The translations under genes and the position numbers were made by a program. A DNA stretch of 34,783 bases from Labilithrix sp. Its GTDB lineage: Bacteria > Myxococcota_A > Polyangia > Polyangiales > Polyangiaceae. Below, piece by piece: positions 12,218 to 27,463 of the stretch; positions within the stretch are counted from its first letter, which is position 1, and the number at the start of each line of letters is the position of its first letter. The notes beneath the pieces were generated by a model. It saw nothing but the letters and a program-made list of their open reading frames with translations. It had not been told where the DNA came from and ran no database searches. The stretch lies in NCBI GenBank assembly GCA_019637105.1, contig JAHBWF010000081.1:1-34783 (forward strand), given 5' to 3'.

Positions 12218-13720
12218 TCAGCGCGAGCGCGTCTGCTCGACGGCCCGTCGCCAGCGCTGGATGTGCTCGGCCCGCGCCGCCGCGTCGATCGCGGGCTCGA
12301 AGGAGCGGTCGAGCTTCACCATCCGCGTCGCTGCGGCGAGATCGGAGAGCTCCGCGCCGACGCCGGCGAGCATCGCGGCGCCCCGGCCGGTGGACTCCAC
12401 CTCGGTCGGCCGGACGACCGTGACCTGCGCGACGTCGGCCTGGAACTGCGCGAGCAGATCGTTCTTCGCCGCGCCGCCGTCGACCTTCAGCGCGACCAGC
12501 TCCCGGCCGGCGTCCTTCGTCATCGCCTCGAGGAGGTCCCACACCTCGAACGCGATCCCCTCCAGGGTCGCGCGCGCGAGGTGAGCCGCGGTGGTGCCGC
12601 GCGTGATGCCGGTGATCGTCCCGCGCGCGCTCTGGTCCCAGTACGGCGCGCCGAGGCCGGCGAGCGCCGGGACGAACGCGACGCCCTCGGACGACTCGAC
12701 CTTCCGCGCGAGCGGCTCGATGTCCGCCGCCGCCGCGATGAGCCCGAGGCCGTCGCGCAGCCACTGGACCGCCGCCCCCGCGATGAAGGCGCTCCCCTCG
12801 AGCGCGTAGGTCGGCGCCGCGTCCTCGCCGCCGAGCTGCCAGGCGACCGTCGTGATCAGCCCATGCCCGCTCGCGATCGGCGTCTTGCCGACGTTCATGA
12901 GCGCGAACGCGCCGGTCCCGTAGGTGCACTTCGCGTCGCCCTCGCCGAAGCACGCCTGCCCGAAGAGGGCGGCCTGCTGATCGCCGGCGATCCCCGTGAT
13001 CGGGATCCCGTCGGGGAGGAAGCTCACGCCGCGCGTCTCGCCGATCGGCCCCGCGCTCGGGACGATCTTCGGCAAGACGCTCGCCGGCACGCCGAAGAGC
13101 CGCAGCATCTCGTCGTCCCAGGCGAGCGCGTCGATGTCCATCAAGAGCGTGCGCGACGCGTTGGTCACGTCGGTCGCGTGGACCGCGCCGCCCGTGAGCC
13201 GATGCACGAGGAACGCGTCGATCGTCCCGAACGCGAGCTCGCCCCGATCCGCGCGCGCGCGCGCGCCGGACACGGCGTCGAGGATCCAGGCGATCTTCGT
13301 CCCCGAGAAGTACGCGTCGATGACGAGGCCGGTCTTCTTCCGCACGAGCGGCTCGGCGCCGTCGGCCTTCAGCCGATCGCACAGCTCCGCGGTCCGCCGG
13401 CACTGCCAGACGATCGCGCGGTGGACCGGCCTGCCGGTCCGACGATCCCAGAGGAGCGTCGTCTCGCGCTGGTTGGTGATCCCGATCGCGCCGATGTCGG
13501 TCCCTGCGATCCGCGCGGCGGAGAGCGCGCCGGAGACCGCCTCCTCGACGCTCTTCCAGATCTGCTCGGCGTCGTGCTCGACCCACCCCGGCTTCGGGAA
13601 ATGCTGCGGGAACTCGACGGTCTTCTTCCCGAGCGTCTCGCCCTCGAGGGTGAGGACGATCGCCGTGGATCCGGTCGTGCCTTGATCGATCGCGAGGAGC
13701 TTCCGCGGGGTGGCTGACAT
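12218..13720 (-). CDS. glpK: Glycerol kinase
   Basis: A full-length 500-residue FGGY-family kinase that phosphorylates glycerol to glycerol 3-phosphate with ATP. The ATP-phosphate loop 'AIDQGTTGSTA' (10-20), the substrate region 'GITNQRETTLLWD' (80-92), 'GIAGDQQAALFGQ' with the catalytic Asp, 'TYGTGAF' and 'LKVDGGAAKNDLL' are all present. The pattern fits glycerol kinase and not xylulose or gluconate kinase. The ATG at 13720 gives the normal N-terminus. No glpF, glpD or glpR lies beside it, so it is a single gene here. It is divergent from the aminotransferase gene across 143 nt (13721-13863), where I see no clear promoter. High confidence. Confidence 0.96.
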   Translation of the reverse strand: MSATPRKLLAIDQGTTGSTAIVLTLEGETLGKKTVEFPQHFPKPGWVEHDAEQIWKSVEEAVSGALSAARIAGTDIGAIGITNQRETTLLWDRRTGRPVHRAIVWQCRRTAELCDRLKADGAEPLVRKKTGLVIDAYFSGTKIAWILDAVSGARARADRGELAFGTIDAFLVHRLTGGAVHATDVTNASRTLLMDIDALAWDDEMLRLFGVPASVLPKIVPSAGPIGETRGVSFLPDGIPITGIAGDQQAALFGQACFGEGDAKCTYGTGAFALMNVGKTPIASGHGLITTVAWQLGGEDAAPTYALEGSAFIAGAAVQWLRDGLGLIAAAADIEPLARKVESSEGVAFVPALAGLGAPYWDQSARGTITGITRGTTAAHLARATLEGIAFEVWDLLEAMTKDAGRELVALKVDGGAAKNDLLAQFQADVAQVTVVRPTEVESTGRGAAMLAGVGAELSDLAAATRMVKLDRSFEPAIDAAARAEHIQRWRRAVEQTRSR

Positions 13721-13863
13721 GGCGCGGCGAGCATACGCGCTTCGCGAGCGCAGAGGAGCCCTCCGCGAGAGGCCCCGCAGCGAGAGCCCTCGACGAGAGA
13801 CCGCGAATCGCTCGAGGCTCCTTGGAACGCCGCGGCGCCGCCACTACAATGCGCCGCACGAAC

Positions 13864-15198
13864 ATGAGCGACACCGCCGAGATCCAGGCCAGACACGCGA
13901 AGTACGTCCTCAGCCCGTGGCTCGCCCAGGGCGGCCTCGTCGCCCCGGTCATCGTGCGGGGAGAGGGCTCGTACCTCTTCGACGCCGACGGCAAGAAGTA
14001 CCTCGATCTCGGCAGCGGCCTCATCGCGGTGAACCTCGGCCACGGACACCCGAAGGTCGTCGCGGCCATCCAGGAGCAAGCCGGCCTGCTCGGCTACGCC
14101 GCCCCGGCGCTCTTCCACGACAAGCGCGCGCTCCTCGCCGAGGAGCTCTCCGCGATGTCGCCTTGGGCCGGCGGCGAGGGGTGCCGCGCCTTCTTCACCA
14201 CCGCCGGCGCCGACGCGAACGACGACGCCGTGCGCATCGCGCGCGCCGTCACCGGACGCGCCAAGGTGCTCTCCGCCTACCGCTCGTTCCACGGCTCGAG
14301 CGGCACGTCGATCATGTTGACCGGCGAGGACCGGCGCTGGGGCGGCGAGCCCGGGCCGCCGTCGATCATGCGCTTCTTCGCGCCGTACCCGTACCGCTCG
14401 CCGTTCCACGCGACCACCCCGGCCGAGGAGACCTCGCGCGCGATCGAGCACCTCGAGCGCATCCTCCTGCACGAGGATCCGAAGCGCGTCGCCGCGGTCC
14501 TCATCGAGCCCGTCGTCGGCTCGAACGGCGTCATCGTCTACCCCGACGGCTACCTCCCCGCGCTCCGCGCGCTGACGGAGAAGCACGGGATCTTCCTCAT
14601 CGCCGACGAGGTCATGACCGGCTTCGGCCGCACCGGCCCGGCGTTCGCCTCGCAGAAGTTCGGCGTCGTCCCGGACATGCTCACGTTCGCGAAGGGCGTC
14701 ACGTCGGCCTACCTGCCGCTCGGCGGCGTCCTCGTGCGCGAGAGGATCGCCTCGACGTTCGACGCGCGCGCGCTCCCGTGCGGCCACACCTACTCGGGCC
14801 ACCCGATGTGCGTCGCCGCGGGCCTCGCGACGGTGCGGGCCTACAAGGAGGAGAAGGTCTTCGAGCGCGGCGCGGCGCTCGAGGGCGTGCTCCGCGCCGG
14901 CCTCGCCAACATCACCGAGAAGCACCGCTCCGTCGGCGAGGCGCGCGGCACGGGGGCCTTCTTCGCCCTCGAGCTCGTGAAGGACCGCGCCTCGAAGGAG
15001 CCGCTCGTCCCCTGGCACGGCGACGGCCCCGGCGTGATGAAGAACCTCTACGTGGAGCTCCGCAAGCGCGGCGTCTACACGTTCGGCAAGTTCAACTGCG
15101 TCATGGTGGCCCCGCCGCTCACCGCGACGAAGGCCGAGGTCGAGGAGGGCCTCGCCGCCCTCGACGACGCGCTCACCGCGTTCGAGGCCGCGCTGTAG
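13864..15198 (+). CDS. Class III PLP-dependent aminotransferase (taurine/omega-amino-acid type)
   Basis: A 444-residue fold-type I aminotransferase. The cofactor motifs are 'FFTTAGADANDDAVRIAR' (phosphate contact), 'IADEVMTGFGRTG' with Asp248 (pyridine nitrogen) and 'LTFAKGVTSAYLPLGG' with the Schiff-base lysine Lys277. 'YRSFHGSSG' is the usual aromatic-His pair over the ring, and 'CGHTYSGHPM' is also typical. It resembles taurine or beta-alanine:2-oxoacid aminotransferases; the substrate cannot be read from the sequence. I chose ATG 13864 (MSDTAEIQARH); ATG 13849 and TTG 13822 are in frame but would add a non-conserved tail. It ends 10 nt before the HugZ/PPOX-like gene, so the two are probably co-transcribed. 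No taurine transport genes are near. Confidence 0.93.
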   Translation: MSDTAEIQARHAKYVLSPWLAQGGLVAPVIVRGEGSYLFDADGKKYLDLGSGLIAVNLGHGHPKVVAAIQEQAGLLGYAAPALFHDKRALLAEELSAMSPWAGGEGCRAFFTTAGADANDDAVRIARAVTGRAKVLSAYRSFHGSSGTSIMLTGEDRRWGGEPGPPSIMRFFAPYPYRSPFHATTPAEETSRAIEHLERILLHEDPKRVAAVLIEPVVGSNGVIVYPDGYLPALRALTEKHGIFLIADEVMTGFGRTGPAFASQKFGVVPDMLTFAKGVTSAYLPLGGVLVRERIASTFDARALPCGHTYSGHPMCVAAGLATVRAYKEEKVFERGAALEGVLRAGLANITEKHRSVGEARGTGAFFALELVKDRASKEPLVPWHGDGPGVMKNLYVELRKRGVYTFGKFNCVMVAPPLTATKAEVEEGLAALDDALTAFEAAL

Positions 15199-15208
15199 CG
15201 CGCCCGCC

Positions 15209-16027
15209 ATGCCGTCCGATCGAGATCGAGGCGCGCGCGCGCCGAGAAGCCACGGCGACGTCGAGGTCGACGAGCGCCCGCCGGTGAAGGCGCCGAGCCA
15301 CGCCGAGCGCTGCCGGACGCTCGCAGCCGGCGCCCGCGCCGCGACCCTGTCGACGATCGCGAGCGATCCGCCGGGGTACCCGTACGGCTCGCTCGTGACC
15401 GTCGCCTTCGACGGCGGGCGGCCGCTCCTCTTGATCTCGCGGCTCGCGGAGCACACGCAGAACCTCGAGCGGCGCGCGGACGCGTCGGTGCTCGTGACCG
15501 AGCCGCTCGATCGGCACGCGCAGCCGCTCGCGGTGGGCCGCGTGACGATCCTCGGACCGTGCCGCCCCGTCACCGAAGCCGAGCGCGACGCCGCGCGCGC
15601 GACGTTCCTTGCCGCGCACCCGGACGCGTCCTACTACGTCGACTTCTCCGACTTCGCGTTCTACCGGCTCGAGCCGGTCGCGCTCCGGTACGTCGGCGGC
15701 TTCGGGCGCATGTCGTGGGTGACCGCCGAGGACTACCTCGCGGCGGAGCCCGATCCGCTGGCGAGCTCGGCCGCCGGCATCCTCGCGCACATGAACGACG
15801 ACCACGCGGACGCCGTGCTCGCCTACGCGCGCGCGCTCGCGGGCATCGACGCCGCCACGGCCGCGACGATGACCGCCGTCGACCGCTACGGCTTCGAGCT
15901 CGCCGCGACCACCCCGGCGGGGCCGAAGGCGGCGCGCCTCGCGTTCGAGTCCCCGGTCTCGACCACGGACGAGGTCCGCAAGGCGATGGTCGCGCTCGTG
16001 CGCGAGGCGCGCGCGCGCCTCGCCTGA
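15209..16027 (+). CDS. HugZ-like PPOX/DUF2470 flavin- or heme-binding protein
   Basis: A 272-residue protein with two domains. The N-terminal split-barrel (about 30-165) is of the pyridoxamine-5'-phosphate-oxidase type: 'AATLSTIASDPPGYPYGSLV', 'PLLLISRLAEHTQNLERRADASVLV' and 'FYRLEPVALRYVGGFGR'. The C-terminal domain (about 175-272) is DUF2470-like with 'HMNDDHADAV' (His194, His199). This pairing is found in HugZ/HutZ heme-utilisation proteins and in uncharacterised PPOX proteins. It could degrade heme or reduce a flavin- or F420-linked substrate; no heme-uptake genes are nearby. The first 28 residues are charged and probably disordered. ATG start at 15209, just after the aminotransferase. 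The family is well supported, the reaction is not. Confidence 0.88.
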   Translation: MPSDRDRGARAPRSHGDVEVDERPPVKAPSHAERCRTLAAGARAATLSTIASDPPGYPYGSLVTVAFDGGRPLLLISRLAEHTQNLERRADASVLVTEPLDRHAQPLAVGRVTILGPCRPVTEAERDAARATFLAAHPDASYYVDFSDFAFYRLEPVALRYVGGFGRMSWVTAEDYLAAEPDPLASSAAGILAHMNDDHADAVLAYARALAGIDAATAATMTAVDRYGFELAATTPAGPKAARLAFESPVSTTDEVRKAMVALVREARARLA

Positions 16028-16106
16028 CGCCGGCTCGCGCGGCATGCGCGAGGAGGAGCGAGCGGGTACCGTTCGGGAGACGCCTCGTCTGGCTCGTCGA
16101 TCTCCG

Positions 16107-17219
16107 ATGCCGTCCATCGAAGCCTCGCCCGTCTCGACGACCCGCAGGCGCCGCGCCGCGTGGGCGCTCTTCGCCGTGCTCGCCGGCGCGTCGCGCGCGG
16201 AGGCGGAGGAGCCGCGCGCCCCGGGCGCACCGGCGGAGCACGAGCGCGTCCACATCGCGTACGACGCCGGCGATCGATGCCCGCGCTACGAGGCGTTCGT
16301 CGACAACGTACGCGCGTACACGTCCCGCTGGACCCCGGCGGAGGGCGGGCGCCGCCTGCGCGTGACGCTCGAGCCGCGCGACGACGAGGTGGTGGGGACG
16401 CTCGAGGTGCCGCGGGGAGACGAGGCCCCGAGCGCGGTCCGCGAGATCGTCGGCCCCGACTGCGAGACGGTCGCGCGCGCGATGGCGGTCGCCGTCGCCG
16501 TCGCGATCGATCCGCGCGCGTTCGGCGGCGTCGGCGCGCCCGAGCCCGCGGCGCCGGCGCCGGCCGAGGCGGGCGAGGCCGCGACCGGCGGCCCGCGGGA
16601 GACCGGGCCGCCCTCGCCGCCCGAGCGCCGCCCGCCCGAGCCCGCCGCCTCCTCGCGCCGTCCGCTGCCTCGCGTGGCGCTCGAAGCGCGAGCGGAGCTG
16701 ACGTCGGCGGTGGTCGCCGGCCTCCTCCCCGTCTTCGGCGTGGCGGCCGAGCTCGATCCGTTCGCCGAGAGCGCGGCGCGACCGTCGTGGCGCGCGCCGC
16801 GCTGGCTCCGACCGTCGTTCGCCCTGGGGCTGAGGCAGAGCGTCCCGAGGGAGATCACGTCGTCCGCGGTCGTCACGACGTTCACCTGGACGAGCGGCGT
16901 CGCGCGCCTCTGCCCCGCGCGCGTCGCGAGCCGCGACGGGCGGCTCGAGCTCGTGCCTTGCCTCGAGGGCGACGCCGGCGTCCTCCGCGCCGACGCGAGC
17001 GGCGCGTTCGACGCGAGGCGCACGTCGAACCTCTGGCTCGACGCGGGCGCCTCGGCGCGGTTGGCGTGGACGCCGGCGGGCCGGTGGTTCGCCGGCGCCG
17101 CGGTCTCCGCGATCGTGCCGGTGACGCGCAATCGCTTCGAGCTCACGGACCGTACCCTGGTCTCGCGCGCGCCGCGCCTCGGAGTGAGCTTCGGGCTCTC
17201 GGCCGGCGTGCGGTTCTGA
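16107..17219 (+). CDS. Exported protein, possible outer-membrane protein, function unknown
   Basis: I do not recognise a named family. I chose the ATG at 16107 because it gives a signal peptide ('RRRRAAWALFAVLAGASRAEAEE', cleavage near residue 34). A first domain (about 45-150) has paired Cys residues ('DRCPRYEAF' and 'GPDCETVARAMAVAVAV'), consistent with a periplasmic disulfide fold. A Pro/Glu/Ala-rich linker (about 155-200) follows. The C-terminal half has alternating polar/hydrophobic segments ('PSFALGLRQSVP', 'VVTTFTWTSGVARLC', 'LGVSFGLSAGVRF') and ends in Phe, like the final strand of outer-membrane barrels. An earlier ATG (16044) is in frame. It sits 68 nt upstream of the ECF sigma gene, but the AT-rich stretch between them suggests a separate promoter. 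A link to the sigma operon is possible but not shown. Confidence 0.75.
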   Translation: MPSIEASPVSTTRRRRAAWALFAVLAGASRAEAEEPRAPGAPAEHERVHIAYDAGDRCPRYEAFVDNVRAYTSRWTPAEGGRRLRVTLEPRDDEVVGTLEVPRGDEAPSAVREIVGPDCETVARAMAVAVAVAIDPRAFGGVGAPEPAAPAPAEAGEAATGGPRETGPPSPPERRPPEPAASSRRPLPRVALEARAELTSAVVAGLLPVFGVAAELDPFAESAARPSWRAPRWLRPSFALGLRQSVPREITSSAVVTTFTWTSGVARLCPARVASRDGRLELVPCLEGDAGVLRADASGAFDARRTSNLWLDAGASARLAWTPAGRWFAGAAVSAIVPVTRNRFELTDRTLVSRAPRLGVSFGLSAGVRF

Positions 17220-17246
17220 GCCGCGCCCTCGACGAACGGCGGTGGA

Positions 17247-17276
17247 GATTTTTTGATCAACGCGCGGCACCGAAAC
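17247..17276 (+). promoter_or_regulatory. AT-rich candidate promoter of the ECF sigma operon
   Basis: In the 68-nt gap before the sigma gene, GATTTTTT (17247-17254) runs into a perfect 8-bp palindrome TTGATCAA (17253-17260), and CGAAAC follows at 17271-17276, 12 nt before the start codon. This is the most AT-rich stretch in the neighbourhood and stands out in this GC-rich window. It could be an autoregulated ECF promoter or an operator. No textbook -35/-10 consensus matches. Confidence 0.4.
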
Positions 17277-17287
17277 ATCCATGGGCA

Positions 17288-17905
17288 ATGTCCGCCTGCT
17301 CGTCACTCCTCGCGCCGGCGGAGCGCGCGACCTCGGACGAGGACGCCGTGACGGAGCGCGCCCGTCCGGCCGCCGAGGGCGCCGACGCCCGGCTTCGCGA
17401 GCTCGCCTCGCGGCACTTCGCGGACGTGTGGCGCTTCCTGCGACACCTCGGGGTCCCGCAGAGCTCGGTCGACGACGCCGCGCAGGACGTCTTCCTCGTC
17501 GCCGCGCGACGGCTCGAGGAGATCGAGCCCGGCCGCGAGCGCTCCTTCCTCTTCGGGACGGCGTTCAAGGTCGCGCAGGCCGCCCGGCGCAAGGCCTGGC
17601 GCGAGGCGCCGCGCGAGACGCTGCCCGACGGCGACGCGGGCGACGAGCGCGACCACGGTCCGACGCCCGAACAGCACCTGGACGACAAGCAAGCGCGCGC
17701 GCTCGCGCTGCGCCTCCTCGACGAGCTCGACGAAGGGCTGCGCGAGGTGTTCGTCCTCTACGAGATCGAAGGACTCACGATGCAACGAATCGCCGAGCTC
17801 ACGGAGCTGCCCCCGGGCACGGTCGCGTCGCGGCTGCGTCGCGCGCGGGAGGAGTTTTTGACCCGCTTCGCGCGGCACCGCAACAGCGCGCGAGGTGCCC
17901 GATGA
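17288..17905 (+). CDS. ECF-type RNA polymerase sigma factor
   Basis: A 205-residue group IV sigma factor that would direct RNA polymerase to a small set of promoters, probably including its own. Region 2 spans about residues 38-105 ('HFADVWRFLRHLGVPQSSVDDAAQDVFLVAARRL'-type helices with the DDAAQDVFL motif). Region 4 spans about 137-192 ('LREVFVLYEIEGLTMQRIAELTEL' followed by 'PPGTVASRLRRAREEF', the HTH). The ATG at 17288 gives a normal length; another ATG at 17281 is out of frame. The last bases overlap the next gene (ATGA, 17902-17905), the standard arrangement for a sigma factor and its partner regulator. It heads a seven-gene operon that ends at 25571. Confidence 0.95.
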   Translation: MSACSSLLAPAERATSDEDAVTERARPAAEGADARLRELASRHFADVWRFLRHLGVPQSSVDDAAQDVFLVAARRLEEIEPGRERSFLFGTAFKVAQAARRKAWREAPRETLPDGDAGDERDHGPTPEQHLDDKQARALALRLLDELDEGLREVFVLYEIEGLTMQRIAELTELPPGTVASRLRRAREEFLTRFARHRNSARGAR

Positions 17906-18637
17906 AGCCGGGAGACGACGCGCGGCTCGAGGACACCGACCCGGAGTTCGCGCGCCTGGTCTCGGCGCTCCGCGCGGGCGGTCCCTCGGAGGACGCGCGC
18001 GCGAGGACGGTGGCCGCGATGACCGCGGTCGCCCTGGCGGCCGCGCCCGCGCCGCCCGCCGAGCCCGCGCCGCCCGCCGACGCGCAGCGTGGATCGGCCC
18101 GGCGCGGTGCTGCTGGCGCTCGTCGCCGGGCTCGGAGGTCGCGGCGGCGAGCCCGCGCCTCGGTCGGGCGCCCCGGCGCCGCCGTCCGAGGGCGCGTCGC
18201 CGGCCGTGACGGCCCCCGCCGCGCACGTCGAGGATCGCGAGCCGCAGGTCGCCTCGGTCCGCGTCGAGGATCTGCCGCCCGCGGCGACGGCGCCCTCCCG
18301 CGAGGCGCCGGCGGCCAAGGCGCGACCCGACACGGGCGCGAGCGCGAAGCCGGCCGCCGACTCGTTCCGCGAGGAGCTCGCGCTCGTCGAGCGGGCGCGC
18401 GGCGAGCTCTCGCGCGGCGACGCGTCGGCGTGCCTCCGCACGATCGACGCCTACGGCGCGTACGTGGGGCCGCGCGGAGGCGTCTTCACGCAGGAGGTCG
18501 AGGTGATGCGCGTCGAGGCCCTCGCGCGCTCCGGCGACCGAGAAGAGGCGCGGGCCCACGGCCGTCGGTTCTTGGCGGACCACCCCGCGAGCCCGTACGC
18601 GGAGCGCGTCCGCTCCGTGCTCCACGAGACCGAATAG
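17902..18637 (+). CDS. Sigma-factor partner (anti-sigma-like membrane protein), apparently frameshifted
   Basis: The first 60 codons (from ATG 17902, frame 1) read as the cytoplasmic head of an ECF-associated regulator: 'DTDPEFARLVSALRAGGPSEDARARTVAAM' type sequence, then an Ala/Pro-rich stretch. After about base 18085 this frame turns arginine-rich, and good coding sequence continues in frame 2: 'GAVLLALVAGLGG' (membrane segment), a Pro/Ala linker, and a helical TPR-like C-terminus ('FREELALVERARGELSRGDAS', 'MRVEALARSGDREEARAHGR', 'FLADHPASPYAERVRSVL'). The part from GTG 18089 to 18637 alone would give 182 residues. The gene length (736 nt) is 3n+1, as a one-base gain would give. In related bacteria, as I recall them, head and tail form one protein of about 245 residues next to the sigma factor. 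The cause is a sequencing error or a real disruption that might free the sigma factor. Confidence 0.7.
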
Positions 18638-18657
18638 CTCGAGGCCCGACGCTCGAC

Positions 18658-19893
18658 ATGAAGACCGACGTACGACAGCCGGCGCGGCGCCGCCGGCACC
18701 GAAGCGGGCTCACGGTCGTCGCCCTCGCGGCGGCGGCCGTGGCGATCCTGACGGCCTCGTGCGCGGGCCTCGACGATCCCGTCGTGCTCGCGACGCCCGG
18801 GACCGACGCCGGCCCGCCCCCGCCGCCGTTCACGCCGGCCGACGCGGGAGACGCCGGAGACGCCGCGCCCGAGCTGTTGCGCTGCATCGGCACGGAGTGC
18901 CCGTTCCCCTACGCGAGCTGTCAGGCCGCCCCGAACGCGCGGCCGCCGTTCAAGTGCCAGCACGACCTGCTGACGGACAACGAGAACTGCGGCGCTTGCG
19001 GCAACCCGTGCCCGGCGTATCCGGAGTTCGGCGTCCTCGGGCGGTGCAGCGACGGCAAGTGCGAGCCGCAGTGCGAGGGCCAACGTCGCGACTGCAACCA
19101 GCGCCCCGACGACGGCTGCGAGGTCGAGATCCTGTTCGATCGCGACAACTGCGGCGCCTGCGGGAACGCGTGCGCGGAGGGCGTGCGCTGCATCGAAGGG
19201 AGCTGCGGGTGCCCGCCCGGCAAGACGGACTGCCGCGGGGCCTGCGTCGACACCTCGATCGACGACCTCAACTGCGGCGCCTGCGGGAACTTCTGCACGC
19301 CTCCGCCGGACGCGACGCCTCCCCCGAACATGCGCTACGGCTGCGCGGGCGGCAAATGCGGGCAGCTCATCTGCGAGGCGCCGTGGCGCGACTGCAACGG
19401 CGACCTCACGGACGGCTGCGAGGTGAACGTCGAGCAGGAGATCGAGCCGGGCCTGCTCGACCCCGCGAACTGCGGCGCGTGCGGGGTCGCCTGCGCGGCG
19501 GGCGAGGAGTGCCGGCGCCTCTTCGACGGCGAGATCACGTGTCGATGCAAGGGCCAGGACGTCATGTGCGGCTACCCCGGCAACTACCAGTGCGCGGACA
19601 TCGCCTCGGATCCGAAGCACTGCGGGCTCTGCAACCACGCCTGCCCCTTCGTCGATCGGCGGGGCCTGCACCAGCAGGCGACGTGCACGAAGGGCGTCTG
19701 CGGGACCGAGTGCGAGCCGGGCTGGGGCGACTGCAACGACAACCCCGCGGACGGCTGCGAGACCAACCTCACGTACGACGGCGCGAACTGCGGCGCCTGC
19801 GGGACCCGCTGCAGCACCGGGCTCGGACAGCCTTGCATCGACGGTCGTTGCCTCACGGTCGAGTGCGACGCCGGGGATCCGGTGACGCGATGA
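18658..19893 (+). CDS. Cys-rich repeat lipoprotein (NCGACGN repeats)
   Basis: A 411-residue secreted lipoprotein: Arg-rich n-region, hydrophobic core and lipobox LTAS-C (Cys35), then 'AGLDD' and a Pro/Ala/Asp linker with DAG repeats (48-70). The body has about 45 cysteines in repeated units. The signature NCGACG occurs at residues 110, 164, 205, 271 and 377, with a variant HCGLCN at 321. Three units have a longer form: (W)xDCNxxxxDGCE followed by a spacer and NCGACG (from about 142, 242 and 355). The spacing suggests a stalk of small disulfide-bonded modules. Such repeats are common in myxobacterial surface proteins; the function is unknown, and adhesion or a rigid spacer is plausible. ATG 18658 follows the regulator gene by 20 nt, and its TGA overlaps the next ATG (ATGA, 19890-19893). 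Confidence 0.9.
   Translation: MKTDVRQPARRRRHRSGLTVVALAAAAVAILTASCAGLDDPVVLATPGTDAGPPPPPFTPADAGDAGDAAPELLRCIGTECPFPYASCQAAPNARPPFKCQHDLLTDNENCGACGNPCPAYPEFGVLGRCSDGKCEPQCEGQRRDCNQRPDDGCEVEILFDRDNCGACGNACAEGVRCIEGSCGCPPGKTDCRGACVDTSIDDLNCGACGNFCTPPPDATPPPNMRYGCAGGKCGQLICEAPWRDCNGDLTDGCEVNVEQEIEPGLLDPANCGACGVACAAGEECRRLFDGEITCRCKGQDVMCGYPGNYQCADIASDPKHCGLCNHACPFVDRRGLHQQATCTKGVCGTECEPGWGDCNDNPADGCETNLTYDGANCGACGTRCSTGLGQPCIDGRCLTVECDAGDPVTR
18982..19818 (+). repeat. Tandem Cys-rich protein repeat region (NCGACGN modules)
   Basis: Six in-frame copies of a (N/H)CG(A/L)C(G/N) core, spaced 41-66 residues apart, lie in the Cys-rich lipoprotein. At the DNA level the cores share AACTGCGGCGC(C/T)TGCGG. 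They are degenerate protein repeats, not a nucleotide satellite. Confidence 0.75.
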
Positions 19894-21101
19894 AGCGCCC
19901 GCTCCGCTGGACCGCCTTCGCCGCGGGCGCGACCCTCTCCGCCGCGCTCGGCGCCGCGAGCTGCGCGGACGCCGGCGAAGAGCGATCGCCCGACGACCTC
20001 CCCGGCCCCGGCCCGAGCGTGATCCCGGACGCGGGGGCTCCCGAGGACGCGGCGTGCGACGGCGACGGGTGCGCGGCGCTCTCGCCGTGCGCGGAGACCG
20101 ACTTCTGCCCGGTCACGACGGGGCCCGATCCGCGCTGGACGCTCACCGCGGTGTGGGGCACCTCGAAGGACGACGTGTGGGCGGTCGGCTCGCGCGGGAC
20201 GATCCTCCACTGGGACGGCGCCGCGTGGACGGCGACGCCGTCCGGCACCCCGCAGACGCTCTTCGCGATCACCGGGAGCGGGCCGAACGACGTCTGGGCG
20301 TTCAGCTCGCGCGGCGTGGTCCTCCGATCGACGGGCTTCGCCGCGGGCGCCGCGACGTGGACGGCCGCCCCGCCGGTCGCGCCGACGTACGCGCAGTACC
20401 CGCCGCAGGTCCACAACGAGAGCCTCCTCCTCGCCGCGTGGGCCGGCGCGTCCGGCGCGCTGTGGACCGCGGGCGAGCCTTATCCGGTCGTCCCCGACGG
20501 CGAGCGCACGCCCACGCCGATGAACCTATGGCGGCGCGCGAAGGCCGGCTCCGCGGCGGCGTGGGACCACGACGTCATCGGGTCGAGCGTCGCCGTCCAC
20601 GGCCTCTGGGGCGACGCCGCCCACGGCGTCTGGGCGGTCGGCGGGACGTACGGCACCGCGCTCCAGCGCGCGGGGCGCACCTTCCACGCGACCGTCGCGG
20701 CGGGCGGCGCGCCGACGTGGACGGAGATCGACAGCCAGTCGTCGACCGATCTCCACGCGGTGTGGGGCTCGAGCGCGACCGACGTCTGGGCCGTCGGCGA
20801 CCGCGGCGCCGTCCGTCACTGGACGAACGCCACGCCGAAGCGCTGGGCGATCGTCGACGTTCCGACGGAGAGCGACCTGCGCGCCGTGTGGGGCAGCGGC
20901 CCCTCCGACGTCTGGGTCGTCGGCGACGCCGGCACGATCCTGCACTTCGACGGCGAGACCTGGGAGCCGGCCACCGCCGCCTTCCCGCTCGGCTTGACCC
21001 CGAACCTCCGCGGCGTCTGGGGCAGCAGCGCCGACGACGTGTGGATCGTCGGGGACAGCGTCGTCCTTCACTCGACCGGAAAGGCGAAGAGCGCGCCATG
21101 A
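19890..21101 (+). CDS. Lipoprotein with seven-repeat WG/DVWxVG beta-propeller
   Basis: A 403-residue secreted protein. Lipobox LGAAS-C (Cys25), then 'ADAGEE' and a DAGAPEDAA linker with four cysteines before the domain. The rest consists of seven repeats built on (V/L)WG(S/T)xxxDVWxVGxxGxxLHW(D)G: VWGTSKDDVWAVG, ITGSGPNDVWAF, AAWAGASGALWTAG, LWGDAAHGVWAVG, VWGSSATDVWAVG, VWGSGPSDVWVVG and VWGSSADDVWIVG. Seven units predict a closed seven-bladed beta-propeller, a scaffold used for binding proteins or glycans. No catalytic motif is seen. ATG 19890 overlaps the previous stop (ATGA), and its own TGA overlaps the next ATG (21098-21101). The following gene is a diverged paralogue, so the pair probably arose by tandem duplication. 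Confidence 0.9.
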   Translation: MKRPLRWTAFAAGATLSAALGAASCADAGEERSPDDLPGPGPSVIPDAGAPEDAACDGDGCAALSPCAETDFCPVTTGPDPRWTLTAVWGTSKDDVWAVGSRGTILHWDGAAWTATPSGTPQTLFAITGSGPNDVWAFSSRGVVLRSTGFAAGAATWTAAPPVAPTYAQYPPQVHNESLLLAAWAGASGALWTAGEPYPVVPDGERTPTPMNLWRRAKAGSAAAWDHDVIGSSVAVHGLWGDAAHGVWAVGGTYGTALQRAGRTFHATVAAGGAPTWTEIDSQSSTDLHAVWGSSATDVWAVGDRGAVRHWTNATPKRWAIVDVPTESDLRAVWGSGPSDVWVVGDAGTILHFDGETWEPATAAFPLGLTPNLRGVWGSSADDVWIVGDSVVLHSTGKAKSAP

Positions 21102-22303
21102 GATCGCTTCGGGCTCGTACTCCCGCCCTCGTCACCGCGGCGCTCGTCGCGTCGTCGGCCGCGCTCCTCGCGGTGAGCGCGTGCTCGAGCGACGTCGAGC
21201 TGGCCACGGCCGATCCTCCGCTCGAGGACGCGGGGGCGCCCGAATCGCCGGCGCCGTCCGACGCCGCGACCGACGTCGAGGACGGCGGCTCCGACGCCGA
21301 CGCGCCGGCGCGCACGTGCACCGACGACGGCTTCTGCCATCTGCCGCTGCCCGAGCCGCTGCCCTTGCGCGGCGTGTGGGGCGACGGCGTGGGCACGGTC
21401 TGGGCGGTGAGCGCGGACGGCGCCGTCGTTCGCTGGGACGGCGCGAGCTGGACCAAGCACGTCACGGTGAAGGGCTCGCTCCAGGCGATCTGGGGCAGCG
21501 GCCCGACGGACATCTGGATCGGCGGCGAGGGCGGCCTCTTCCACGGCCAGGGCCCGAGCCCCGACCAGATCGCGTTCGCGCCGGTCGAGCTCGAGCGCGA
21601 CCTCCCGATCACGTCCATCCACGGCTCCGGGCCCGACGACGTCTGGGCGGTCGGCGGCCGCTCCGACTTCGACCACGAGGAGAGCCACGTGCTCCACTAC
21701 GCCGGGCCGACGGCCGATCCGGCGGACGCGTGGCGGCTCGATCCGATCTCGGAGCGGGTGACCGAGTTCGCGCGCGTGTGGGGCGCGACGCCGGACGAGG
21801 TCTGGCTCGGCGGCACGACGTTCCTCAGCGAGCCTCAAGGCGCGGTGCTCGTCCACGGCCGCAAGGCCGACGGCGGGATGGCCTTCGAGGACGTGCCCCT
21901 CACCAACACGCGCGGGCAGTTCCGCCTCGTCACCGGCGGCGCCGTCCTCTCGGAGCTCTTCGTCGTCGGCCGCTACTGGAGCGGGATCGGCGCGGCGTGG
22001 TCCGGACCGATCGGCGACGCGGGAGACGCCGGTCGCGTGTGGGACGACACCACGTTCGACACGTACTTCGGCTTGAACGCGATCTGGGGCGTCGCGGACG
22101 ACGACGTCTGGATCGTCGGCGAGCTCGGCCGCGTCCGGCACTGGGACGGCGCGACGTGGACGCTCCCGAACGTGACGATCACCAAGTTCCCCCTGGCGAA
22201 CGACCTCCACGCCGTCTGGGGCGACGCGAAGGGCGTGCTCTGGATCGTGGGCGACGGCGTCGCGCTGCGACGGGATCCGGCGCTCGTGAAAGGAGGGAGC
22301 TGA
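21098..22303 (+). CDS. Second WG/DVWxVG beta-propeller lipoprotein, paralogue of the upstream gene
   Basis: A 401-residue secreted protein. Lipobox LAVSA-C (Cys29), then 'SSDVE', a DAGAPE linker and an Asp/Gly/Ala tract ('ATDVEDGGSDADAP') with two cysteines. Repeats resemble the upstream protein but are more degenerate: VWGDGVGTVWAV, IWGSGPTDIWIGG, IHGSGPDDVWAVGG, VWGATPDEVWLGG, LVTGGAVLSELFVVG, IWGVADDDVWIVG and VWGDAKGVLWIVG, again seven. Longer loops occur between blades 3 and 6, including a second GDAGDAG tract. It is probably a seven-bladed propeller with a different binding face. ATG 21098 overlaps the previous TGA, and the stop and next start share bases (TGATG, 22301-22305). Confidence 0.9.
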   Translation: MRSLRARTPALVTAALVASSAALLAVSACSSDVELATADPPLEDAGAPESPAPSDAATDVEDGGSDADAPARTCTDDGFCHLPLPEPLPLRGVWGDGVGTVWAVSADGAVVRWDGASWTKHVTVKGSLQAIWGSGPTDIWIGGEGGLFHGQGPSPDQIAFAPVELERDLPITSIHGSGPDDVWAVGGRSDFDHEESHVLHYAGPTADPADAWRLDPISERVTEFARVWGATPDEVWLGGTTFLSEPQGAVLVHGRKADGGMAFEDVPLTNTRGQFRLVTGGAVLSELFVVGRYWSGIGAAWSGPIGDAGDAGRVWDDTTFDTYFGLNAIWGVADDDVWIVGELGRVRHWDGATWTLPNVTITKFPLANDLHAVWGDAKGVLWIVGDGVALRRDPALVKGGS

Positions 22304-23718
22304 TGGCGCGCCTTCGCTCCCTCTCCTGGCGCGCGATGGCGCTGGTCGCGGCGACGGCGGCGGCGCCGCTGGCGTTCGCCGCGTGCGGCGACGCCGAGGA
22401 GCGCGTCGCGTTCCCTCCGGACGCCGCGGCCGAGACCTCGCCGCCCGTGATCCCGCCGCCCGAGGCGCCCGACGGCGGGCCGAGCAGAGGCCACGACGCC
22501 GCCGCCGAGCCGGTCGTGTGCGCGGTCACGCCGTGCGCCGTCGAGCTCGCGGCGGGCGCGAGCCACGTCTGCGCGCGCATGGCCGCGGGAGACGTCCGCT
22601 GCTGGGGCGACGACACGTTCGGCTCGATCGGCAACGGCGCGCCGCCGCCCGACGCGGGGACCGACGACGGCGGCAAGGACGACGACCCGAAGGGCGATCC
22701 CGACGACGACCCGAAGGGCGATCCCGACGACGATCCGAAGGCCGACACGACGCGGCCGACGGCGGTGACGCACGTCGCCGGCGCGACGCAGATCAGCGCG
22801 GCGCATCAAACGACCTGCGCGCGGATCGACGACGGCTCCGTCCGGTGCTGGGGAGGCAACGCGCACGGGCAGCTCGGCCTCGCGGTCGCGCCCGCGATCG
22901 CGGACGACCTCCCCCACCCCTACGCGTCGCCCGTCGCGCTGACCGGCGCCGCGAAGCGCGTCGACGTCGGGCAAAGGAGCACCTGCGCGGTCCTCGCGGA
23001 CGGCGCGCTCGCGTGCTGGGGCTCGAACGAACGGCTGCAGCTCGCGCGCCTCGAGCGCGGCGTGCTCGGCCCCGGCGCCGGCGACCTCGCGGGGTTCGCG
23101 GTGACGCGCGCCGCCGCCTCGGAGGTCACCACCTACGGCCTGACCGCGACCGCCGGGGGCGTGAAGCTCCTCTCGTGGGGCGCGCTCGGCGGCCGCCAGG
23201 GCTCGCTCGATCCGGATCCGGTCCCGGCGATCCTCCCGGCGCTCGACGACGTCCAGGACGTCGCCGTCGGGCCGACGCACGCCTGCGCGATCGCGGGGGG
23301 CAGCGTCTACTGCTGGGGGTCGAGCACGAAGTACGCGCTCTGCACCGGCCTGCCGAGCAGCGAGCCGGAGCCCGCCCACGCGATCCTCCGCACGCTCGCC
23401 TACCCGCAGCAGATCGCGGTCTCGCGCAACGGCACGTGCGTCCGCCTGACCGACGGCACGCTCCAGTGTTGCGGCGACGCCTCGCGCGGGCAGCTCGCGA
23501 TCCCGGCGGCCGACGGCGGCTCGAGCGCGCTCTCGTTCACCCCGGCGACCGGCTTCGTGGGTTACGCGGTCCAGGTCGTGACGACGGACCTCGCGACCTG
23601 CGCGCTGCTCAAGAGCGGCGCGGTCGAGTGCTGGGGAGGAAACGCCCACGGAGAGCTCGGGCGAGGGACGCGCGACGACGATCCGCATCCGACGCCGGAG
23701 CGGGTGAGCTTCCAATGA
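22303..23718 (+). CDS. RCC1-repeat lipoprotein with acidic DPK insert
   Basis: A 471-residue secreted protein. Lipobox LAFAA-C (Cys28), then 'GDAEER' and a Pro/Ala-rich linker. Seven RCC1-type repeats follow, each built on (V/I)xxGxxxxCAxxxxGxVxCWGxNxxGQLG: the blades start near 'ELAAGASHVC', 'QISAAHQTTC', 'RVDVGQRSTC', 'RAAASEVTTYG', 'DVAVGPTHAC', 'QIAVSRNGTC' and 'QVVTTDLATC'. RCC1 repeats fold as a seven-bladed propeller. The first blade carries an insert of about 35 residues with three copies of DDDPK(G/A)D, strongly acidic and possibly Ca2+-binding (inference). Most blades keep a Cys...CWG cysteine pair, perhaps disulfide-bonded. AGGAGG (22291-22296) lies 6 nt before the ATG, the strongest ribosome site in the operon. 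The stop overlaps the next ATG. Confidence 0.9.
   Translation: MARLRSLSWRAMALVAATAAAPLAFAACGDAEERVAFPPDAAAETSPPVIPPPEAPDGGPSRGHDAAAEPVVCAVTPCAVELAAGASHVCARMAAGDVRCWGDDTFGSIGNGAPPPDAGTDDGGKDDDPKGDPDDDPKGDPDDDPKADTTRPTAVTHVAGATQISAAHQTTCARIDDGSVRCWGGNAHGQLGLAVAPAIADDLPHPYASPVALTGAAKRVDVGQRSTCAVLADGALACWGSNERLQLARLERGVLGPGAGDLAGFAVTRAAASEVTTYGLTATAGGVKLLSWGALGGRQGSLDPDPVPAILPALDDVQDVAVGPTHACAIAGGSVYCWGSSTKYALCTGLPSSEPEPAHAILRTLAYPQQIAVSRNGTCVRLTDGTLQCCGDASRGQLAIPAADGGSSALSFTPATGFVGYAVQVVTTDLATCALLKSGAVECWGGNAHGELGRGTRDDDPHPTPERVSFQ
22678..22746 (+). repeat. 24-bp in-frame tandem repeat encoding DDDPKGDP
   Basis: Almost three copies of a 24-bp unit (GACGACGACCCGAAGGGCGATCCC); the first two are identical and the third differs at two or three bases and is 3 nt short. 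It lies inside the first RCC1 blade. Near identity implies recent expansion and possible length variation by slippage. Confidence 0.85.
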
Positions 23719-25571
23719 CGACACGTCCGCCCCCGGAGCATCGCATCATGATCGGCAAGCACGTCGTCCCCGCGCTCGCGCTGGCGGCGCTCACGCTCGG
23801 GTTCGCCGCCTGCGGGAGCTCGCGCGTCACCCCGGAGGAGAAGGATCCGCCCGTCTTCGAGGACGCCGGCGCGCCCGATCCGGCGTGCGACCAGCGGCGC
23901 TGCTCGCGCGACCTCAAGAGCGTCCTCCGCGCGTGCGACGGCGGGGAGGAGGTCATCGAGACCTGCACGGACGGCAAGGGCTGCGGCGACGGCAAATGCG
24001 TCGACGCCTGCACGAGCGCGGAGCTGTCGAAGGGCTCGACCGGCTGCTCCTTCTGGACGCTCCCGCCGGAGGAGCCCCGCCTCGGCGTCGGCTCCTGCTT
24101 CACCGCGATGATCGCGAACACCTGGGACCACCCGGTCACGATCTCCGCCGAGCTGGGGGACGCGCCGCTCGACGTCTCGAGGTCGACGTACACGGCCGAG
24201 AAGGTCGGCACCGAGATCGTCTACACGCCGCTCGGCGGCCCGCTCCCTCCGGGCGGCGTGGCGCTGGTGTTCCTGTCGCAAGGCGAGAACGACGGCACGA
24301 ACGAGTACACGCGCTGCCCGACGACCGTGGTCCCGGCGCTCGCCGAGGATCCCATCCACCACGGCACGGTGCTCACCCGCGCGTTCCACCTGAAGACCGA
24401 CGCGCCCGTGAGCGCCTACTCGATCTTCCCGTACGGCGGCGCCCGCTCGTTCATGCCCGCGGCGACGCTGCTCTTGCCGGTCTCCTCGTGGGGGACGAAC
24501 TACGTCGCGATCACCGGCGGGAACGTGCGCCTGACCGGCGGCGGCTACCCCGACGTGATCAGCGCGACGACCTTGCAGATCGTGGCCGACGAGGACGACA
24601 CCGAGGTCCGGATCCGCCCGAGCGCGGACATCGCCGACGGCGTCGGCGTCCCCGGCGCGGCCCAGGGCTACCCGCGCGCGTGGACGCTCGCGCGCGGCCA
24701 GGTGCTCCAGCTCGCGCAGAGAGCGGAGCTGACCGGCAGCGCGATCGAGACGAGCAAGCGGGTCGGCCTCTTCGGCGGCACCCAGTGCACCAACCTGCCG
24801 TCGACGTACACCGCGTGCGACGTCCTCCACCAGCAGATCCCCGCGCTCTCGCAGTGGGGCAGCGAGTACGCGCTCGCGCCGTACCCCTCGCGGATCCCGT
24901 CGGCCTCGGATACCCCGATCCCCGAGCGCGTCCCGTGGCGCCTCGTCGGCGCCGTCGACGGCACCGCCCTCGCGTGGGATCCCGCGCGGCCGGTCGGCGC
25001 TCCGGAGACCCTGGCGGCCGGGGAGTCGGTCGTCTTCTGGACCGACGCGCTCGTCTCCGTGGCGAGCCAGGACAAGGCGCACCCGTTCTACGCCGGCGTC
25101 TACATGACGGGCGCGAGCTTCAACGGCACGATCCCGACCGGCGGCGGCGGCACGAGCCAGACCTACACGAGCGGCGATCCCGACTACGTCAACGTCGTCC
25201 CGGCCGACCAGTTCCTCGATCGCTACGTGTTCTTCGCGGACCACACCTACCTCGAGACGTCGCTCACGGTCGTCCGCCGCAGGACCGCGGCGGGCTTCGC
25301 CCCCGTCGAGCTCGCGTGCGGCGGCGCGCTCACCGGCTTCCGCCCGCTCGGCGAGAAGGGCGAGTACGAGGTCGCCTGGGTGAAGCTCACGGAGGCCGGC
25401 GCGAACCGGAAGTTCCCCGAGGGCGAGTGCGGCTACGGCCGCCACGAGGCGCGGAGCGACGGACCGTTCGCCGTCACCGTCTGGGGCACGGGCGACTACG
25501 CCAGCTACGGCTTCGCCGGCGGCATGGGCAACCGCCCGATCAACGACGTGACGGCCCCCGTCCCGAAGTAG
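23715..25571 (+). CDS. IgGFc-binding-domain-like lipoprotein
   Basis: A 618-residue secreted protein and the last gene of the sigma operon. Lipobox LGFAA-C (Cys33 from ATG 23715), then 'GSSRVTPEEKD' and a DAGAPD linker. A small Cys-rich section ('CDQRRCSRDLKSVLRACDGGEE', 'CTDGKGCGDGKCVDAC') precedes the main domain (about 110-600). This contains 'IHHGTVLTRAFHLKTDAPVSAY', 'SIFPYGGARSFMPAATLLLPVSSWG' and 'NYVAI', the pattern of the IgGFc-binding N-terminal domain family also seen in many myxobacterial surface proteins. In animals the domain occurs in mucin-like FCGBP; the bacterial role is unknown. ATG 23715 overlaps the previous TGA; ATG 23748 would give a more typical short signal peptide. 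The stop is 8 nt from the convergent UbiB gene, with no clear terminator. Confidence 0.88.
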   Translation: MTTRPPPEHRIMIGKHVVPALALAALTLGFAACGSSRVTPEEKDPPVFEDAGAPDPACDQRRCSRDLKSVLRACDGGEEVIETCTDGKGCGDGKCVDACTSAELSKGSTGCSFWTLPPEEPRLGVGSCFTAMIANTWDHPVTISAELGDAPLDVSRSTYTAEKVGTEIVYTPLGGPLPPGGVALVFLSQGENDGTNEYTRCPTTVVPALAEDPIHHGTVLTRAFHLKTDAPVSAYSIFPYGGARSFMPAATLLLPVSSWGTNYVAITGGNVRLTGGGYPDVISATTLQIVADEDDTEVRIRPSADIADGVGVPGAAQGYPRAWTLARGQVLQLAQRAELTGSAIETSKRVGLFGGTQCTNLPSTYTACDVLHQQIPALSQWGSEYALAPYPSRIPSASDTPIPERVPWRLVGAVDGTALAWDPARPVGAPETLAAGESVVFWTDALVSVASQDKAHPFYAGVYMTGASFNGTIPTGGGGTSQTYTSGDPDYVNVVPADQFLDRYVFFADHTYLETSLTVVRRRTAAGFAPVELACGGALTGFRPLGEKGEYEVAWVKLTEAGANRKFPEGECGYGRHEARSDGPFAVTVWGTGDYASYGFAGGMGNRPINDVTAPVPK

Positions 25572-25579
25572 CGCGCGCG

Positions 25580-27463
25580 TCAGCGGCTGCGCGGGCGCGA
25601 GAAGATCGACGACATCAGGAGCATGAAGCCCGAGAACCCCGCGACGCCGACGAGCACGCGGGTCGGCGTCCCGTCCTCGCCTCGGCCGTGGAGCCAGAGC
25701 GCCGCGAAGCCGGTCGAGAGGCCGATCGCCGTGTAGATGAGCTGCCGGCCGATCGCGTAGACCGTCCGCGCGCCCTCCTGCACGCCCTTGACGCGGACCT
25801 CCATCTCGCCGCGCGTCGCGCGCACGAGGTACTTGCGGAGATCCTCCGGGAGCGTCACGGCGCCGAGCGCCATGTCGCGCACCGTGTCCATCGCGACCTT
25901 CTGCCAGTCGCGGTTTCCGAGGACGAAGTCCTGGAGGTACGGCTGGATGATCGCCATCGGGTTGAGCTCGGGGTCGAGCAGCGCGCACGAGCCGTAGACG
26001 AGCAAGATCGTCCGCTCGAGCAGCACCCAGTCGCGCGGGACGTGGAACGCGCCCGAGAGCTCCTTCAGGCCGACGTTCATCTTCCGGAGGTCGAGCAGGT
26101 TCTCGAACCCGCGCTGCGGGTCGATCTTGATGTCCTTCAGGTTGAAGCTCTCGAGCTTCACCTCCTCCTGGAAGCGGCGGTGGAAGTACTCGATGATCTT
26201 CTCGCTCACGACCTCGTCGCTCGTGCGCGAGAGGAAGCCCATCTTGCGGAGCGCGCGGATCAGCCGCTCGGTGTCGCGCCGGAGCACGCCCTCGAGGAAC
26301 TCCGGGATCCCCTCGCGCATCTGCGGCGAGAGCTCCGCGACCGCGCCGAAGTCGAGCAAGACGAGGTTCCCCTGCTTGTCGACCAGGATGTTCCCGGGGT
26401 GCGGATCGGCGTGGTAGACGCCGTCGACGAAGATCATCTGGCAGTAGACGCGCACGAGGCGGCTCGCCAGCTCCTTCTTGTCGATGCCCATCGCGTCGAG
26501 GCCGGACAGGTCGGAGAGCTTGCGGCCCTCGACGAACGTGGTCGTGATCACGCGACGCGTCGACAGCTCGCGGATCGGCGTCGGGAAGATGACGCGCGGG
26601 TCCTTCTCGAAGTGCTTCGAGATGCGCTCGATGTTCTCGGCCTCGAGCGTGAAGTCGAGCTCGCGCCCGAGCATCTCCTTGATCTGGTGGTAGTAGGCGT
26701 CGAGCCCCTGCACGGGCACGAACCACTGGACGATCGCCATGATGCGGCGGATCGTCTTGAGGTCGAGGCGCACGATCCGGTCGATGTCGAGGTGCTGCAC
26801 CTTCACCGCGACGCGCCGCCCGTCGACCGTCTCGGCCTCGTGGACCTGCCCGAGCGAGGCGCTGGCGAGCGGGACGGGCTCGAAGCGGGCGAAGAGGTCG
26901 CCCGGCGCTCGCCCGAGCTCCTCCTCGACGCGCGACGCGATCTCCTCGAACGGGCGCGGCGGCACCTGATCCTGCAGCCCCTCGAGCTCCGCGCGGAAGG
27001 CCTCCGGGAGGAAGTTCGCCATGATCGAGAGCGCCTGCCCGACCTTGATGAAGAGGCCCTGGAGCTGGAGGATCGTCTCGTAGACGCGCTTCGCGTTCGT
27101 CCTGTGGACCTTGGGGAGGTTCTGATCGCGGTACGCCCTCCCGAGGAGCTTGGCCTTCCAGAAGAGCCAGAGGTAGCTGAAGATGACCTGGAAGGTCGTC
27201 GTGTACGCGCGGACGAAGCGCCAGGTGTCCTCGCTCCGTCCGCGATAGCGCACGACGCGCTTGTCGCGGCCCCGCGCGCCGAGCGCCCGCGGGCCCGACG
27301 GCGCGATCGAGGTCGTCCGTCGTCGCTTGATCGGCCCGCTCTCGTCGGCCGCGCTCTCCGCCGCCGCCGGCGCGGCCGCCGCCACGCGGGTCTCGGCGTC
27401 CGCCGAGCCGCCGTCGGGCTCGGCGGCGTTCGCCGGGAGGTGTTCGAGGCGCGGCTCGGGCAT
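25580..27463 (-). CDS. ABC1/UbiB/AarF family atypical kinase
   Basis: A 627-residue membrane-associated protein of the UbiB (ADCK/COQ8) family, whose members support ubiquinone/menaquinone or other lipid metabolism. The family features are present: KxGQ motif Lys140-Val-Gly-Gln143, the Ala-rich loop 'ASASLGQV' (200-207) replacing a glycine loop, Lys221 ('VAVKVQ'), 'ELDFTLEAEN', the catalytic 'HADPHPGN' (351-358) and 'DFG' (371-373). Two hydrophobic segments close the protein ('LIYTAIGLSTGFAALWL' and 'VLVGVAGFSGFMLLMSSIF'), as in UbiB. The first 80 residues are an unusual Ala/Pro/Arg-rich extension. I chose ATG 27463; an earlier in-frame start (27499) would add 12 residues. No ubi or men genes are adjacent. 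It lies 54 nt downstream of the serine hydrolase gene, possibly in one operon. Confidence 0.94.
   Translation of the reverse strand: MPEPRLEHLPANAAEPDGGSADAETRVAAAAPAAAESAADESGPIKRRRTTSIAPSGPRALGARGRDKRVVRYRGRSEDTWRFVRAYTTTFQVIFSYLWLFWKAKLLGRAYRDQNLPKVHRTNAKRVYETILQLQGLFIKVGQALSIMANFLPEAFRAELEGLQDQVPPRPFEEIASRVEEELGRAPGDLFARFEPVPLASASLGQVHEAETVDGRRVAVKVQHLDIDRIVRLDLKTIRRIMAIVQWFVPVQGLDAYYHQIKEMLGRELDFTLEAENIERISKHFEKDPRVIFPTPIRELSTRRVITTTFVEGRKLSDLSGLDAMGIDKKELASRLVRVYCQMIFVDGVYHADPHPGNILVDKQGNLVLLDFGAVAELSPQMREGIPEFLEGVLRRDTERLIRALRKMGFLSRTSDEVVSEKIIEYFHRRFQEEVKLESFNLKDIKIDPQRGFENLLDLRKMNVGLKELSGAFHVPRDWVLLERTILLVYGSCALLDPELNPMAIIQPYLQDFVLGNRDWQKVAMDTVRDMALGAVTLPEDLRKYLVRATRGEMEVRVKGVQEGARTVYAIGRQLIYTAIGLSTGFAALWLHGRGEDGTPTRVLVGVAGFSGFMLLMSSIFSRPRSR

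Follow-up and report, generated by a model that had tools for sequence, protein, structure and literature searches.

Do five lipoprotein genes lying in a row behind a sigma factor gene serve one surface structure, or are they only neighbours? The question is raised by a stretch of 34,783 nt from Labilithrix sp. (contig JAHBWF010000081.1; the whole stretch is called here the window, and its genome G000), in which the gene of an extracytoplasmic function (ECF)-type sigma factor (SIG) is preceded by the gene of a predicted barrel protein (OMP), and followed by a membrane regulator gene (REG) and five lipoprotein genes (Lip1 to Lip5). Together these genes make up a single copy of an eight-gene cassette that has paralogues, OMP–SIG–REG–Lip1–Lip2–Lip3–Lip4–Lip5, and the cassette consists of two modules, OMP-SIG-REG (R) and Lip1-5 (L), with largely independent histories. 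The reading that we favour, at a probability of about 0.5, is that of a surface-recognition unit under sigma control, the control heads of which can be exchanged, and in which sensing, complex formation and function are putative.

The separate histories emerge from the comparison of 85 places with a Lip5 profile score >600, 69 of which, from six genomes, hold all five lipoprotein genes. Pairwise distances between the proteins of these blocks (56 OMP, 61 SIG and 65 REG sequences were available) correlate strongly within Lip1-5 (Spearman coefficients 0.76-0.91), less within OMP, SIG and REG (0.37-0.52), and hardly between the two sets (0.00-0.17), most cross-module values falling inside 200 label shuffles. 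Removal of orthologues, which leaves 40 cassettes, does not change the picture (0.62-0.87 within L, 0.37-0.50 within R, 0.01-0.15 between), and in the same 40 cassettes nearest neighbours agree in 57-72% of cases within L and 67-70% within R, and in 17-27% across modules. Trees built from 30 paralogues tell the same: of 27 splits, 2 are common to R and L and 16 to the Lip1-Lip2 and Lip4-Lip5 halves of L. The R tree is rejected by the L data and the L tree by the R data, forcing on either module the tree of the other costing 2300-4857 log-likelihood units, compared with 78-129 for exchanging the Lip1-Lip2 and Lip4-Lip5 trees. Among pairs of cassettes with an L identity of 0.55-0.70, 23 of 38 have SIG/REG identities below 0.4; in the control, none of the 156 pairs with Lip4/Lip5 identities in the same range has Lip1/Lip2 below 0.4.

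Swap junctions near the start of Lip1 are visible in four discordant pairs. Two loci of genome G003, L107 and L099, share 74% identity in the lipoprotein module and 23% in the control module, and in the latter L107 is 86% identical to L049, which resides in G000. At the DNA level, L107 and L099 are 79% identical along a stretch of 6.8 kb, which sets in about 80 nt past the point where the Lip1 profile begins to match and runs through the end of Lip5; they do not match before. In the pairs L100-L097, L121-L122 and L095-L159 the DNA match begins 98-153 nt past this profile start, the first two showing an additional short matching stretch in SIG; all these junctions were taken from BLAST ends, and their position is rough. 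The pair L103-L118 is the reverse case. Pairings are kept between species. In eight cross-species pairs, lipoprotein modules 82-94% identical are accompanied by the same control module, and the window's cassette is collinear together with its flanks (12197 to 27381) with positions 267-15484 of L038, a locus of Labilithrix sp. ACE_MYX5 (G004), at 89% DNA identity (L modules 89%, R modules 80% identical), the match ending at 27381. Since Lip1-5 share a history unlike that of the adjacent control genes, the view that they are one unit is better supported than by gene order alone.

Gene order is invariant. In all 69 complete blocks Lip1 to Lip5 follow each other in this order on one strand, and the first-pass annotation, which had proposed a fixed order and would have been contradicted by relatives with the genes apart or rearranged, is not refuted on this point. 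Among the remaining 16 places, seven have a Lip5 gene that stands alone; one of these is in G011, and the other six are spread over five genomes from other genera. The other nine either run into the end of the contig or of the retrieved sequence or have no Lip3, one of them having no Lip4 either. Lip1 and Lip2 overlap stop to start (-4 or -1) in 69/69 blocks, Lip2 and Lip3 in 68/69, and SIG and REG in 47/58, counted with the in-frame ATG, GTG or TTG nearest the stop and without a shuffle control. Conservation of this layout accompanies marked sequence divergence, the median identities of block paralogues being 27-44% (0.27 for Lip3, 0.33 for Lip2). Lipoboxes following a hydrophobic stretch, as had been reported for all five window proteins, recur across the blocks, a strict pattern being found in 49, 61, 63, 63 and 66 of 69 sequences for Lip1 to Lip5, respectively. 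Sorting of lipoproteins follows a +2 rule, which may differ in myxobacteria; Asp occupies +2 in 4 of 302 recognised sites. The control genes are less constant. The full trio of OMP, SIG and REG could be recognised in 56 of 69 blocks, and the REG-Lip1 gap ranges from -4 to 137 nt, besides two larger values; the entire trio points away from Lip1-5 in L046 and L054, SIG and REG do so in L095, OMP in L122. The strongest reason to think that Lip1-5 act together is that the five-gene unit has been retained while recombination acts at its edge.

The five genes might also encode surface proteins that are co-expressed yet separate, such as several adhesins or decoys, with no joint structure. The evidence for a unit consists of linkage and co-inheritance; Lip1, Lip2, Lip4 and Lip5 belong to broad families, the Lip5 type stands alone in other genera, and blocks without Lip3 occur (L093, L153 and L161; L051 lacks both Lip3 and Lip4). 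Yet, no reordering is seen within the block despite recombination at its edge, and the overlaps joining Lip1, Lip2 and Lip3 are near-universal, and we regard separate proteins as rather unlikely.

Cassettes are heavily amplified. The genome of the window hosts 18 Lip5-type matches, 12 of which, including that in the window, are near full length. Nine of the other 11 near-full-length regions (L041, L043-L050) carry Lip1-5 complete, in order and on one strand, the third lipoprotein gene being recognised in L047 and L050 by the Lip2 profile; the two exceptions are L042, in which Lip4 is visible only as a weak fragment, and the incomplete L051. Lip5-type matches were found in 32 of the 39 genomes searched, G000 included. 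G004 has 46 matches, and G003 (Myxococcales bacterium 68-20, a metagenome-assembled genome of the same genus) has 141 matches to PF17517, 128 of which exceed 270 bits. Sampling every fourth G003 locus of ranks 1-137 gave 35 loci, 31 of which hold a complete five-gene block in order (in one, L120, the third gene is of the Lip2 type); the exceptions are L093, and ranks 129, 133 and 137 (L123-L125), which have no block. Scaling 31-32 of 35 to 138 loci yields an extrapolated 122-126 copies, and G003 thus probably houses more than 100 cassettes. Twelve same-strand neighbours 9.4-11.1 kb apart occur among the 128 strong Lip5 loci of this genome, and point to tandem duplication.

Such numbers invite other explanations. 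Copies could be alternative coats, of which a private sigma factor expresses one or few at once, in a sort of antigenic or kin-type variation directed against phages or serving self-recognition, rather than the sensing of ligands. Copy number spans a wide range inside the genus, from genomes with no Lip2 match to the estimate for G003, Lip3 and Lip2 have diverged strongly, and control and output have been re-paired, all of which would suit coat variation; but the eight cross-species pairs that conserve their control module suggest stable individual roles, and this alternative is improbable. Closely spaced neighbours and numbers varying widely between relatives may speak for a neutral or selfish spread of a recombination-prone cassette, with no repertoire function, but despite wide divergence all 128 strong Lip5 matches of G003 are free of internal stops, and module pairings are maintained between species; we regard such a spread as very improbable.

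Distribution of the complete cassette is narrow, that of some of its components broad. Labilithrix is placed by the NCBI taxonomy within Polyangiales. Of 109 genomes in the family, the Lip2 profile (E<=1e-40) matches 6, each of them from the genus of the window; within the genus, G001, G002, G006, G008, G009 and G011 gave no match in this search. In G005, a short contig carries a fragment with Lip3-4-5, and the Lip2 profile gave no match. The Lip3 profile (E<=1e-30) matches 7 of 290 genomes of the class, the same six plus G252, which belongs to another family. The G252 match (L221, G252:C195) lies on a 7.7-kb contig carrying in tandem the end of one cassette and the start of a second, and is either misbinned or transferred. 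By contrast, PF17517 is found in 91 of 99 family genomes, and Lip5-type genes are thus family-wide; the five-gene block is absent at the Lip5-type loci inspected outside the genus.

In the window, all genes of the cassette are on the forward strand. Lip1 (18658-19893) is a Cys-rich lipoprotein, MXAN_6577-like or STIG1-like, which belongs to the MXAN_6577-like family (NF041328, 115.8 bits, cut-off 100) and also matches PF04885 (39 bits). Lip2 (19890-21101) is a propeller lipoprotein with DVWxVG repeats (PF14870, YCF48-type, 30.7 bits, cut-off 27); DxW repeats are present in its orthologue and paralogues. Lip3 (21098-22303) is a divergent propeller lipoprotein related to Lip2, tied to propellers by its similarity to the Lip2 of L038 (27% identity, E 2e-22). 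Lip4 (22303-23718) is an RCC1-repeat propeller (PF13540, RCC1_2, 110.2 bits, cut-off 22). Extra RCC1-type genes lie beside the cassette in other loci, after Lip5 in L045 and L165, and between REG and Lip1 in L048. Lip5 (23715-25571) is a mostly beta lipoprotein with an IgGFc_binding domain, matching PF17517 over the full profile (1-297; 322.3 bits, cut-off 25.6), and its AlphaFold2 model has a predicted local distance difference test score of 88.4 and a predicted template modelling score of 0.88. Lip1, Lip2, Lip4 and Lip5 are thus members, by curated cut-offs, of the MXAN_6577-like, YCF48/BNR, RCC1 and IgGFc_binding families, names which cover single domains. On the minus strand, outside the cassette, a gene at 32310-33497 has a start that resembles, by eye, a lipoprotein signal.

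The first-pass annotation had described a seven-gene operon made of SIG, REG and the lipoprotein genes. All seven were located; the coordinates of SIG and Lip1-Lip5 are confirmed, the overlaps at 19890 (ATGA), 21098 (ATGA), 22303 (TGATG) and 23715 (ATGA) are exact, and the domains assigned to SIG, Lip1, Lip2, Lip4 and Lip5 score above curated cut-offs. Lip3 can be called a propeller by its similarity to Lip2, but no domain family reaches its cut-off. The overlap of REG with SIG holds for the ATG at 17902, which overlaps the SIG stop (ATGA), but REG is not an intact gene in the assembly. The annotation had overlooked the broken frame and the eighth gene, OMP, upstream of SIG, as well as the amplification and the re-pairing of the two modules.

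OMP (16044-17219, alternative start at 16107) encodes a signal peptide, a periplasmic alpha/beta domain (about residues 65-161), a Pro-rich linker and a C-terminal 8-strand beta-barrel (residues 208-391); the barrel is predicted, and resembles the small barrels of OmpA and NspA. No Pfam family matches the window OMP at E<=1. SIG (17288-17905) holds regions 2 and 4 of ECF sigma factors, and its scores place it in this group (PF04542 26.8, cut-off 24; PF08281 54, cut-off 25.7; TIGR02937 69.5, cut-off 42.9). REG (17902-18637) is broken as assembled, relative to its orthologue in the part from 17902 to 18100: the ATG frame from 17902 runs free of stops into Lip1, and the conserved membrane/TPR part sits in a different frame (18098-18637). 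The REG orthologue in L038 is a single frame of 247 amino acids, and its alignment with the window shows a 10-nt and a 1-nt gap, besides gaps of 3 or 9. REG has a short N-terminal part, one transmembrane segment, a Pro-rich linker and a TPR-like periplasmic part. A hydrophobic, membrane-spanning-like stretch of 19 residues is present in 19/19 REG relatives, among which weak matches to YfiO (11/19) and TPR_14 (9/19) were obtained.

The trio is not a peculiarity of the cassette. The OMP profile matches 83 of 99 family genomes, and 19 loci from genomes other than those with the cassette were hand-picked among the stronger matches. OMP, SIG and REG occur in this order in 18 of them, belonging to 11 genera, the exception, L205, having OMP alone. 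None of the 18 trios is flanked by the five-gene lipoprotein block. The next same-strand gene is lipoprotein-like in 10 of them, by a scripted pattern in five (L196, L200, L202, L203 and L210), by eye in the others (L197, L198, L199, L201 and L207). The OMP–SIG–REG trio is thus widespread in the family, often beside other lipoproteins. In G000 itself, another locus (L212, G000:C17) comprises OMP, SIG and the first part of REG, where its contig ends. Upstream of SIG, the window carries a candidate sigma-dependent promoter element, GATTTTTTGATCA (17247-17259), found with identical letters in L038 and L040. The hexamer GTGATC precedes SIG in 12 of 36 cassettes, where 1.1 would be expected; it was selected post hoc as the top-ranking word among all 6-mers, and at some of its sites it overlaps the stop codon of OMP. 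Its enrichment is in line with self-control by each sigma factor. Because the trio is conserved and GTGATC lies before SIG, control of the cassette and its lipoprotein genes by its own SIG becomes more likely.

Barrel, REG and sigma factor could plausibly form a path from the outer membrane to RNA polymerase. In Fec-type cell-surface signalling (FecA-FecR-FecI), an outer-membrane barrel, an inner-membrane regulator and an ECF sigma factor are encoded together. The cassette likewise co-encodes a barrel, a regulator with a periplasmic part and an ECF sigma factor expected to drive linked surface genes. However, in place of a TonB-dependent receptor there is a barrel predicted to be of the 8-strand OmpA type, which has a periplasmic domain of its own at the N-terminus; REG has no FecR domain, and the output is five lipoproteins instead of a transporter. 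Membership in the Fec type was rejected, as OMP has no recognised plug or TonB receptor family (E<=1) and is predicted to be a small barrel, and FecR is missing among the matches of the 19 REG proteins at E<=1. Bacteroides SusC/SusD loci are many per genome, paralogous, and each equipped with an ECF sigma/anti-sigma pair and surface lipoproteins. The cassette, too, comes in many paralogous loci per genome with their own ECF sigma factor, membrane regulator and surface-type lipoproteins, but differs in the partners of sigma and in the recombination of output and control modules. A Sus-like locus, with its SusC/SusD pair, was rejected, since no SusD, plug or TonB receptor family was found in the window cassette genes (E<=0.1; OMP, E<=1). 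A search of open-licence papers turned up no described system with this ordered gene set or amplified cassette. CnrY-type (class II) anti-sigma factors have a short N-terminal part before one transmembrane helix (PMC7406223). REG shares this topology, and its short N-terminal part would fit a CnrY-like anti-sigma factor, from which it differs by the TPR-like periplasmic part.

In the model proposed, the R module would be the input. OMP, through its barrel and periplasmic domain, and the inner-membrane TPR protein REG would hold or release the sigma factor, which upon a signal at the cell surface would transcribe its own operon. The L module would be the output, five translationally coupled outer-membrane lipoproteins, in which a Cys-rich spacer, two BNR-type propellers, an RCC1 propeller and an IgGFc-type beta protein may form one unit for surface recognition or attachment. 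Copies would have multiplied through tandem and dispersed duplication, the L modules diverging in ligand and the R modules in signal, and recombination close to where Lip1 begins would have joined R modules to other L modules. That the five proteins belong to one surface structure, and that this serves adhesion or recognition, as the first-pass annotation had suggested, we still infer.

Several observations weigh against this model. The common history within L could come from linkage alone, and a common tree for the two L halves, though not rejected by the Shimodaira-Hasegawa test, is rejected by the Kishino-Hasegawa and approximately unbiased tests. The independence of the modules is incomplete, as a residual cross-module signal exceeds its own 200-shuffle limit for OMP-Lip1 (0.17, limit 0.12), OMP-Lip4 (0.14, 0.10), SIG-Lip1 (0.13, 0.08) and OMP-Lip5 (0.10, 0.09). 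Overlaps, from which the first-pass annotation had drawn fixed order and coupled translation, are near-universal between Lip1, Lip2 and Lip3, but are kept between Lip3 and Lip4 in 39 and between Lip4 and Lip5 in 35 of 69 copies. Lip1 conforms to the strict lipobox pattern in just 49 of 69 copies (67 with a looser pattern), and Lip5 has no confident match to a solved fold. In the 60 blocks with at least 9 kb upstream, OMP was not found in seven and SIG in two (L102 and L047). No Pfam anti-sigma domain was recognised in the 19 REG proteins, the candidate promoter element is seen in only a third of cassettes, and REG is broken in the window itself, by an assembly error or a real frameshift. Complex, surface exposure and ligand are all putative.

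A broader proposal, tentative and somewhat doubtful, is that the cassettes make up a combinatorial repertoire, with an estimated 122-126 fixed five-lipoprotein "receptors" in one genome wired to interchangeable barrel/sigma heads, on top of a family-wide, TonB-receptor-free class of outer-membrane-to-sigma signalling. If the copy estimate is true, this would be a paralogous operon family of unusual size among bacteria, and about a tenth of the 11.9-Mb G003 genome may be cassette (122-126 copies of about 9.5 kb, by extrapolation). Were the repertoire real, recombination would let a given surface structure gain a new trigger. The cassette family is a natural experiment in the re-pairing of signal input and surface output, and the widespread OMP–SIG–REG trio offers a testable outer-membrane-to-sigma pathway in myxobacteria.

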